The notes beneath the pieces were generated by a model. The model had not been told where the DNA came from. It searched no databases and was given only the letters and a program-made list of their open reading frames with translations. 35,047 bases of DNA from Flavobacteriaceae bacterium. Lineage in GTDB: Bacteria > Bacteroidota > Bacteroidia > Flavobacteriales > Flavobacteriaceae. Of the stretch, positions 2,374 to 35,047 are shown one piece after another; the stretch's first letter is position 1, and every line of letters begins with the position of its first letter. The position numbers were made by a program, and so were the translations under genes. The DNA lies in the NCBI GenBank assembly GCA_024763015.1, contig JANTGO010000004.1:1-35047 (forward strand), given 5' to 3'.

Positions 2374-4338
2374 CTACGCCTCAGGCGTTTCTTTTTCTTC
2401 CTCATCAAAAGGTCTCTTGCCAAGAATTCTTTCTAGATCTTCTTTAAAAATAACCTCTTTTTCAAGTAGTCTATTGGCCAAATTTATCAACTTCTCCTTA
2501 TTCTCACTTAAGATTTTTTTAACCCTAACATATTGTTCTTCAATTATTTTTGAAATTTCTTGATCGATAATCTCAGCTGTTTTTTCGCTGTACGGTTTGG
2601 TAAATCCGTAAGCTTCACCGGAAGAATCATAATAGGTCAAATTACCAATTTTTTCATTTAATCCGTAAACCGTTACCATCGCGCGTGCTTGTTTGGTTAC
2701 TTTTTCCAAATCGTTTAAGGCACCTGTTGAAATATTTCCAAAAATTACTTCTTCGGCAGCCCTACCTGCCAAAGTAGCAGCCATTTCGTCCAACATTTGT
2801 TCTTTTTCTACCAACACACGTTCTTCAGGCAAATACCAAGCGGCACCCAAAGACTGCCCACGAGGTACAATGGTTACTTTAACCAAAGGATGTGCATGCT
2901 CAAGCAACCAACTTGCCGTCGCATGACCTGCTTCATGATGTGCCACACGACGTTTTTCTGCCGGCTTTATAATTTTATTTTTCTTTTCCAATCCACCGAT
3001 TATTCTATCAACGGCATCTAGAAAATCTTGTTTATCTACTTGCTCTTTGGCTTTACGAGCCGCAATAAGCGCTGCTTCGTTACAAACATTGGCAATATCT
3101 GCACCCGAAAATCCGGGAGTCTGTTTTGCCAGAAAATCGACATCCACATCGTTTGACAACTTCAAGGGTTTTAGATGGACCTCAAATATCTCTTTACGTT
3201 CGTTTAAATCGGGTAAATCGACGAAAATCTGTCTATCAAAACGTCCGGCACGCAAGAGCGCTTTATCCAAAACATCTGCACGGTTTGTCGCAGCGATAAT
3301 AATTACGTTATCTTGTGAACCAAAGCCGTCCATCTCAGTAAGCAATTGGTTTAGCGTACTTTCTCTTTCATCATTACTGCCTGTCATATTGTTTTTGCCA
3401 CGGGCACGTCCTATGGCATCAATTTCGTCAATAAAGATGATTGAAGGTGATTTTTCCTTGGCTTTCTTAAACAAGTCTCTCACCCTAGAAGCACCAACCC
3501 CCACAAACATTTCTACAAAATCAGAACCTGAGAGTGAGAAAAAAGGCACTTTTGCTTCTCCGGCAACGGCTTTTGCAAGCAAGGTTTTTCCGGTTCCGGG
3601 AGGGCCTACCAATAAGACACCTTTCGGAATTTTACCACCCAATTTGGTGTATTTCTCCGTGTTTTTCAAAAAATCAACGATCTCTTTTACTTCTTCTTTT
3701 GCACCTTCTAATCCGGCAACATCTTTAAAAGTAGTTTTTTCTTTCTTTTTAGTATCGTATAATTGGGCACGTGATTTTCCAATGCTAAAAATACCGCCAC
3801 CGCCACCACTGCCGCCGGCACCGCCGCCACTCATTCGCTTCATCATATATAACCAGAAACCAATAATGAGAATCCATGGCAATACCTGCATCAAGAATGC
3901 CATAAAATAATCGGTTGTGGTTTTAAACTTATATTCTACCGGAATGCCTTTGGCTCTTGCTTCGTCCAATTTTTTTTCGAAGAGTTCCAAATTCCCAATT
4001 TCTACGATATAATCGGGTTGCGGACCGGATTGAAAAAATCCTTTTTCTTTTTTCTTGCCCTTTTTATCCTTGGCAGCATCGGCAATAAATATATCGGCAA
4101 GTTGTTTATTCTCAATAACAACTTCCTTTATTTTGCCATGATCCAAGAGCTCTTCAAATTTATTATAGCTTATTATTTTCTCATCATTTGAATCACCTGA
4201 ATTCATCATCAAGAAGAATAGCGTGGTAAAAATAGCAAAATAAATCCAAGATATATTAAATTTCATCGGGGACTTATTATTACCGGTATCAGGCTTTTTC
4301 ATTCCTTTTTTCGAATTGTCAATATTATTCTTATCCAT
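2374..4338 (-). CDS. ftsH: ATP-dependent zinc metalloprotease FtsH
   Basis: 654 aa; Walker A GPPGTGKT, 'IIFIDEIDAIGR', SRH, HEAGH zinc motif. Confidence 0.98.
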   Translation of the reverse strand: MDKNNIDNSKKGMKKPDTGNNKSPMKFNISWIYFAIFTTLFFLMMNSGDSNDEKIISYNKFEELLDHGKIKEVVIENKQLADIFIADAAKDKKGKKKEKGFFQSGPQPDYIVEIGNLELFEKKLDEARAKGIPVEYKFKTTTDYFMAFLMQVLPWILIIGFWLYMMKRMSGGGAGGSGGGGGIFSIGKSRAQLYDTKKKEKTTFKDVAGLEGAKEEVKEIVDFLKNTEKYTKLGGKIPKGVLLVGPPGTGKTLLAKAVAGEAKVPFFSLSGSDFVEMFVGVGASRVRDLFKKAKEKSPSIIFIDEIDAIGRARGKNNMTGSNDERESTLNQLLTEMDGFGSQDNVIIIAATNRADVLDKALLRAGRFDRQIFVDLPDLNERKEIFEVHLKPLKLSNDVDVDFLAKQTPGFSGADIANVCNEAALIAARKAKEQVDKQDFLDAVDRIIGGLEKKNKIIKPAEKRRVAHHEAGHATASWLLEHAHPLVKVTIVPRGQSLGAAWYLPEERVLVEKEQMLDEMAATLAGRAAEEVIFGNISTGALNDLEKVTKQARAMVTVYGLNEKIGNLTYYDSSGEAYGFTKPYSEKTAEIIDQEISKIIEEQYVRVKKILSENKEKLINLANRLLEKEVIFKEDLERILGKRPFDEEEKETPEA

Positions 4339-34213: not shown

Positions 34214-34283
34214 ATTTTTAATATCGGCTAATTATCAACAAACAATTTAATTTATAAAATTATACACTACGTGTATATATGAA

Positions 34284-34303
34284 ATATCACGAATTCGTGA
34301 TAT
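34284..34303. repeat. Perfect 20-bp palindrome
   Basis: ATATCACGAATTCGTGATAT, self-complementary over all 20 bp. Confidence 0.95.
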
Positions 34304-34309
34304 ACGTAC

Positions 34310-34319
34310 GTTACCTACA
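34310..34319. repeat. Left copy of cassette-bracketing inverted repeat
   Basis: GTTACCTACA, exact reverse complement of 34852-34861. Confidence 0.9.
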
Positions 34320-34325
34320 ATTTGA

Positions 34326-34856
34326 ATGAAACAATACGTAAAATTCACCATTAAGGATTCTGATAATAATGAAACTACTGAATTCAGTTATGTTCCAAAC
34401 TCGTTTGGAGAAATTGAATTGCGAAAACTGACTGACAAATTGAATATTCTAATCATTCATTTTGAGAATCTGGATTTAGTAAGAGAAAACTTGGATGATG
34501 AAGCAGACGAATTTTTAGATGACCCAATATCAATAATGCTAACAAATTATCCAATAAAAATAAATGAACTATCTGAATTAGAATTGGATTTAAAAGATGG
34601 CTGGACTGATGATATGTTATTTACTATGGTCACTTTTAGAGATGGAGAATCGATTAATAATAACAAAATATCCATTAAAAAAGATGGGAATGGAGTGTTT
34701 GTCGTTAATTGGACAGGAAGTTACTCAACTTGGAACACAGACCGTTCTGATAGATTTTTAGAATTAAATATAAAGGCAAAACTAAAAACTGAAATAGTAA
34801 CACCTTTATGCGAAAATGATGAAGTTATAATAGAAACGTTCGATAAAAAACTGTAG
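34326..34856 (+). CDS. Small acidic hypothetical protein
   Basis: 176 aa ORF, ATG 6 nt after the left repeat, TAG stop embedded in the right repeat; no recognised domain. Confidence 0.75.
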   Translation: MKQYVKFTIKDSDNNETTEFSYVPNSFGEIELRKLTDKLNILIIHFENLDLVRENLDDEADEFLDDPISIMLTNYPIKINELSELELDLKDGWTDDMLFTMVTFRDGESINNNKISIKKDGNGVFVVNWTGSYSTWNTDRSDRFLELNIKAKLKTEIVTPLCENDEVIIETFDKKL

Positions 34857-34861
34857 GTAAC
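34852..34861. repeat. Right copy of cassette-bracketing inverted repeat
   Basis: TGTAGGTAAC, exact reverse complement of 34310-34319; contains the stop codon. Confidence 0.9.
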
Positions 34862-35047
34862 AACGTGTATAGCTCATTGCTATTCAGTTGCTTAATCGAA
34901 GTTAAAGCGTGTTTGGAAAGTCGCCAAATTTTTAAATTTGACGATTTCCAATAAAAAAGATAAATAATAAAATTTAAGAATCTGGCTTGTGGCTCAACCG
35001 AAAATTAATTGCTAATTTGCACGCAACGAGCCATACACAAGACCGTT
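34852..35047. mobile_element. Putative attC-like folded recombination site (truncated by window end)
   Basis: Outer TGTAGGTAAC; inner arms GTGTATAGCTCATTGC (34865-34880) and GCAACGAGCCATACAC (35023-35038), inverted with 14/16 identity; central hairpin 34913-34951; ends ...AAGACC-GTT. Confidence 0.5.

Follow-up and report, generated by a model that had tools for sequence, protein, structure and literature searches.

A probable mobile gene cassette at a contig end and integron-like cassette arrays in flavobacteria linked to a tyrosine recombinase without the I2 insert

RESULTS

Anatomy of the unit at the window end

The window analyzed here, a 35,047-nt stretch of a Flavobacteriaceae genome (G000, contig C4), ends in a single open reading frame (ORF) of 176 aa that is bracketed by an inverted repeat and followed by a long structured site (Table 1). 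The ORF product had no significant match in Pfam or NCBIfam, and no family was found for it. A check of the sequence found every element named in the first-pass annotation at its place, with all coordinates correct. The bracketing repeat, described there as perfect, is perfect over 10 nt and runs further than described: past an A/C mismatch, equivalent to a T.G wobble in the bottom strand, lie three more matched bases, a pattern that is also that of related cassettes. A 10-nt perfect inverted repeat is unremarkable in itself, because 89 such pairs lie no more than 600 nt apart in the window, so that the evidence resides in the combined architecture; chance, which could account for the repeat, was rejected as an explanation of the unit. 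The limits of the unit follow from the topology of its end repeats, as in 105 related cassettes, and from a Winogradskyella eximia homologue that opens at the same TT. Since the contig stops at 35047, the window end coincides exactly with the cassette junction, and the covariance-model match (34859-35047) takes in the spacer and the GTT at this end.

Table 1. Features of the window unit and of the attI-like copies elsewhere in the genome
Feature	Position	Strand	Remark
attI-like landing site	34268-34312	+	Putative crossover between G34310 and T34311
20-bp palindrome ATATCACGAATTCGTGATAT	34284-34303		Within the attI-like site
attI-like core CACGAATTCGTGATATACGTACGTT, 25 nt	34288-34312		Identical in C61, 1 mismatch in C45
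attI-like copy	G000:C45:15257-15281		Followed by cassette-like start, then contig end
attI-like copy	G000:C61:12260-12284		Followed by cassette-like start, then contig end
GTTACCTACA	34310-34319	+	Upstream repeat copy
Cassette start / distal half of R' (GTTACCTACA-A-TTT)	34310-34323	+	Pairs with 34848-34861 except position 11
Mobile cassette unit, 735 bp	34311-35045	+	From TT of R' to the G preceding the next TT
Cassette ORF, 176 aa	34326-34856	+	ATG 34326, TAG 34854-34856
R'' box (AAACTGTAGGTAAC)	34848-34861	+	Complement of start box, from sequence
TGTAGGTAAC	34852-34861	+	Reverse-complement copy overlapping TAG 34854-34856
Spacer'' AAC, 3 nt	34862-34864	+	Part of the 3/6 asymmetric internal loop
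L'' arm GTGTATAGCTCATTGC	34865-34880	+	Bottom-strand pairing with 35023-35038; covaries in the cassette family
Variable terminal region of attC-like site, 142 nt	34881-35022	+	Length and sequence vary among sites
L' arm GCAACGAGCCATACAC	35023-35038	+	Partner of L'' arm
Spacer' AAGACC (6 nt) and GTT core of R'	35039-35047 (GTT 35045-35047)	+	At contig end

Fold and covariation of the attC-like site

When the ends of the window cassette were rejoined and the bottom strand was folded as DNA without constraints, the result (-37.4 kcal/mol; z -6.4 vs shuffles) comprised the outer stem, the internal loop and the inner stem that had been proposed for this site, and the top strand misfolded (-30.5). 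The suggestion of an attC-like structured site was borne out across the family by covariation of the stem: among 27 aligned sites, 98.6% of the stem cells were paired on the bottom strand and 8 of 19 pairs were altered on both sides, whereas sliding one arm as a control lowered pairing to 25-52%. Two stem positions were G.T in 26 of the 27 sites, which on the top strand corresponds to A.C mismatches; the 3/6 asymmetric internal loop was present in all of them, and a bulged stem base in only about 5, the window site having none. The bottom strand was the more stable computed fold in 74 of 83 sites, which share kinship, so that a p value for this asymmetry is not independent evidence. The R' core reads GTTACCT in the window, and its departure from GTTRRRY, noted at the outset, proved to be a trait of the family, whose cores consist of GTTR followed by variable bases. 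The covariance model R1 was built from 27 sites with the window site among them, and the R1 score of that site is therefore not independent. No Rfam family matched the site at E 0.1, and a class 1 integron region gave no R1 match.

An attI-like motif and further sites in the same genome

A 25-nt motif precedes the window cassette and has three copies in the genome, at the window and on contigs C61 and C45, all of them followed by a cassette-like start. The C61 copy lies 82 bp past the stop codon of a gene for a 464-aa tyrosine recombinase. Judged by its sequence, the motif is attI-like, and reading it as attI would place the window unit at an orphan attI copy. A second attC upstream of the window cassette had to be abandoned: none lies there, and the sequence, together with the C61 and C45 copies, places an attI-like site in that flank instead. 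The presence of several attI copies in one genome is unusual for integrons.

A pattern search with the L'' arm also found contigs C9 and C164, and the covariance model located further sites in the genome, including one outside its training set on contig C12, which opens at a cassette start, GTTAGCGGTA, complementary to its own R''. On contig C161 (L119), a site in the opposite orientation (2039-2164, + strand) lies upstream of another gene for a recombinase without I2 (2754-3641). Positions 270-1672 of contig C164 (L035) comprise a site and, directly behind it, an insertion sequence, IS3-like by eye, in which two ORFs are transposase-like. Contig C152 (L034; 183-3200, minus strand) holds ORFs that by eye resemble Cas2, Cas1, a reverse transcriptase (RT) and Cas6, possibly an RT-linked CRISPR adaptation module.

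Presence and absence of the cassette

In the genome collection, the window ORF had one relative, in W. eximia, with 96% DNA identity over 555 nt and a protein 95% identical to the window product. The matching stretch opens with the TT of the cassette start, which follows G in the window and A in W. eximia, and ends just past R''; the flanks differ. This match, together with the general gene content, agrees with placing the window in Flavobacteriaceae. Two further model sites lie upstream at the W. eximia locus. The comparison of strains that had been suggested came out in part: the OmpA-like neighbor gene is full-length in eleven congeners and the cassette is absent beside all eleven, but an exact empty-site pair was not found among them, because the intergenic region after the OmpA-like gene is too diverged to be aligned. 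On a plasmid of Chryseobacterium sp. SNU WT5 (NZ_CP041688.1, 11962-24996; L205), an integrase of the I2-less family is followed by short genes (Crp/Fnr, RidA, SRPBCC, GLPGLI) with two weak attC-like model matches, possibly a mobile integron of this type.

Cassette arrays in related genomes

The cassette that closes the window is very probably a genuine mobile one, and the integron-like capture system to which it belongs has a wide distribution among flavobacteria and related Bacteroidota. The pattern TAACAACGTGTATA, with at most one mismatch, was strongly enriched in some related genomes (78 matches in G058 vs 5 for the reversed pattern), and in the chromosome of G026 more than 20 sites are clustered in each of two regions measuring about 46-56 kb. 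When the end of a cassette was compared with its own start, more than half of the 56 adjacent pairs matched over at least 8 nt, and the mean complementarity of adjacent sites was 7.07 nt vs 4.07 nt after shuffling (maximum 4.71 in 1000 shuffles). Adjacent pairs without a match mostly exceed one cassette length, and another site type may lie between them. Among 158 sites found by motif, 108 had a start complementary to R'' over at least 9 nt no more than 3.5 kb upstream, as opposed to 1 with shuffled R''; the L box directly precedes 92 of these 108 starts, whereas among GTTR positions at large the figure is 7%. At position 11, A occupies the start in all 113 cases, and the R'' complement has G in 98 of them. 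An R'' that is complementary to the beginning of its own cassette is, in these sequences, the signature of an integron.

The 105 unique cassettes have a median length of 762 bp, and 96 of 100 cassette ORFs (at least 60 aa) run in the direction of the array. Domains in a cargo sample of ten proteins included DoxX, VIT, SDR, alpha/beta hydrolase, SMI1/KNR4, HEPN and DUF2971. A cassette opening with GTTATGTACAAGTTCCCAAAC is repeated many times in the two G026 arrays (L068-L073), inside one array as well as across both, and its start frequently lacks a long ORF. BLAST could locate breakpoints among arrays only coarsely, as conservation of the L' box extends up to GTT.

The search of the genome and its relatives with the covariance model, which the first-pass annotation had recommended, found matches in 94 of 150 relatives and, across the phylum, in 78 of 396 genomes; since scoring was confined to the best candidates in each genome, site counts are lower bounds. 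Arrays with end repeats that covary cassette by cassette exist in relatives, as the cassette topology ascribed to the window unit had implied, and the outcome named beforehand as contrary to it, a lack of further units and of covariation, did not occur. The guess of a distinct cassette family is likewise upheld.

The associated integrase

The first-pass annotation had seen no integrase; in the same genome, however, a tyrosine recombinase gene lies on contig C61, with contig ends between it and the window cassette. Such a gene is located a short way upstream of the first site, and on its strand, in at least 10 genera, and where the junction was readable, in several genera, the first cassette starts 39-126 bp past the integrase stop codon (82 bp in C61). 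The recommended search for a recombinase was thus rewarded with respect to a tyrosine recombinase, but not with respect to IntI, which exceeded the TIGR02249 cut-off in none of the 150 relatives; a hidden canonical IntI in these relatives was accordingly rejected. In the phylum, IntI above the curated cut-off occurs in 105 of 396 genomes and is common in other classes.

The catalytic R, K, H, R, H and Y positions are invariant in 13 aligned integrases. The spacing from KxDR to HxxRH is 58-59 residues in 31 of 31 array recombinases vs 100 in 11 of 11 IntI proteins; the IntI insert of ~41 residues (I2, or patch) is missing from all 31, and the alignment of the integrase to 2a3v skips chain residues 198-243. 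The best family match is NCBIfam NF040815 (XerA; 209-234 bits, cut-off 220) and the best PDB match is XerA (5hxy). Genomes carry several recombinases of this I2-less family. When a tree was rooted on two Xer proteins from this genome, IntI fell inside the I2-less set, and an AU test did not reject that set as a separate clade (p-AU 0.27); descent of IntI from integrases without I2 is thus suggested by the tree and receives no support from the AU test.

Many of these integrases carry an extra N-terminal domain of ~85 residues, in two copies in C61, three in C143 and none in others. Its profile was found in 44 of 90 genomes, and sites were present in 40 of the 44 genomes with the domain vs 21 of the 46 without it (Fisher p 3.8e-6, ignoring relatedness). 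The predicted structure (pLDDT 83) had weak top Foldseek matches to the damage-recognition domain of XPB (2fwr; prob 0.90, E 0.12) and the HARP domain of SMARCAL1 (4o66; prob 0.82, E 0.14), a hidden Markov model of the domain aligned weakly to HARP (hmmsearch, 4o66, E 0.29), and Pfam HARP gave no match. The predicted fold is thus weakly HARP-like. HARP-type domains bind DNA junctions, and by analogy a junction-binding role may be hypothesized for the N-terminal domain.

DISCUSSION

The arrays share much with IntI integrons (class 1; Vibrio chromosomal; 2a3v): an attI beside the integrase, cassettes that hold one ORF each and are lined up in a single orientation, attC sites with R'', L'', L' and R', complementary cassette ends, a putative G|TT junction and a predicted fold of the bottom strand. 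They differ in an integrase that lacks the insert of ~41 residues and often has an extra N-terminal domain, in a core of GTTR rather than GTTRRRY, in sites with G.T wobbles and few bulges in place of regular extrahelical bases, in the 3/6 internal loop, and in an attI that lies downstream of the integrase gene and has three copies in this genome. Most sites, as aligned, lack the extrahelical bases that the IntI insert reads. CALIN elements (attC clusters without an integron-integrase) are likewise arrays of attC without canonical IntI, whereas the arrays described here are linked to an integrase of another architecture. Xer-type proteins, represented by NF040815 (XerA, "site-specific tyrosine recombinase/integron integrase"), include the best family match of the integrase, which differs from them in its linkage to attI and cassette arrays, in an SPLD-like C-terminal end shared with IntI and, in many members, in the N-terminal domain. 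An "integron-like" subgroup of tyrosine recombinases in which the insertion is not fully conserved is described in one study (PMC8138268), in passages that make no connection with cassette arrays or attI.

According to one account, the I2 helix is necessary for cassette capture and attC recombination, occurs in no other protein and is what made integron integrases single-strand recombinases (PMC7790495). If I2 is necessary in this sense, an integrase without it must use another means. Nearly nothing is reported from flavobacteria and related Bacteroidota in the integron surveys that we examined; the IntegronFinder 2.0 survey added one complete integron, in Salinibacter, from which previously nothing but integrase-only elements had been known (PMC9024848). 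The lack of an insert thought essential may be the reason why the arrays escaped such surveys. We found no published description of them in a search mainly of openly available journal papers, and an earlier description is possible.

Several other explanations were weighed. In a canonical integron or a CALIN, the cassettes would carry ordinary attC sites and an IntI with I2 would have been lost, diverged or missed in the assembly. True IntI is indeed common elsewhere in the phylum, some genomes hold both IntI and R1-type sites, and a few sites near IntI genes match R1 weakly (16-20 bits). Yet sites occur in 94 of the 150 relatives, none of which has IntI above the cut-off, and the recombinases adjoining arrays keep their short catalytic spacing without exception; with the class 1 region devoid of an R1 match and extrahelical bases mostly missing from the stem, we consider this explanation improbable.

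Homologous recombination between near-identical sites could have reshuffled relic arrays in place of site-specific recombination, and the sites are similar enough to recombine and some cassettes are repeated within one array. Such reshuffling leaves unexplained the complementarity of each R'' to its own cassette start, the compensatory changes, the placement of attI at the integrase and the intact catalytic residues of the 13 aligned integrases, and is very unlikely. Almost no weight can be given to a non-autonomous transposon or repeat family (MITE-like), a structured RNA or a terminator, spread by another mechanism: a long inverted repeat in many copies, each about 120-190 nt, and contig ends that suggest repeated sequence, would fit this account, but the end repeats match within a cassette and differ between cassettes, which is not expected of a MITE, each unit has one ORF in the orientation of the array, and arrays begin at an integrase and attI. 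The negative Rfam search also speaks against it, and a transcript of the ORF strand would contain the mismatched strand rather than the paired one.

The window unit thus very probably belongs, as a mobile gene cassette, to an integron-type capture system that is native to Bacteroidota and would work without I2. Architecture, covariation, the asymmetry of the strands, the linkage to an integrase and the lack of the insert can be read from these sequences, and from them we infer a model with binding, cutting and recombination through a single-strand pathway. The bottom strand of the attC-like site, when single-stranded, would fold into an R stem, a 3/6 internal loop and an L stem with conserved G.T wobbles; the Xer/IntI-like tyrosine recombinase without I2 encoded on contig C61 would bind the folded site and cut between G and TT. 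It would then join the cassette to the attI just downstream of the integrase gene or, alternatively, to either of the other two attI copies of this genome, the window locus being among them, or it would excise the cassette as a circle, and repeated capture would lead to arrays. More tentatively, and with considerable doubt, we propose that this is a second way to run an integron, in which folded single-stranded attC sites are recombined without I2 on hairpins marked by wobbles, with a HARP-like, junction-binding N-terminal domain in many members, and which may represent the state ancestral to IntI with I2. A large, active-looking flavobacterial system without I2 makes the origin of integrons testable, and its cassette arrays open a large pool of mobile genes.
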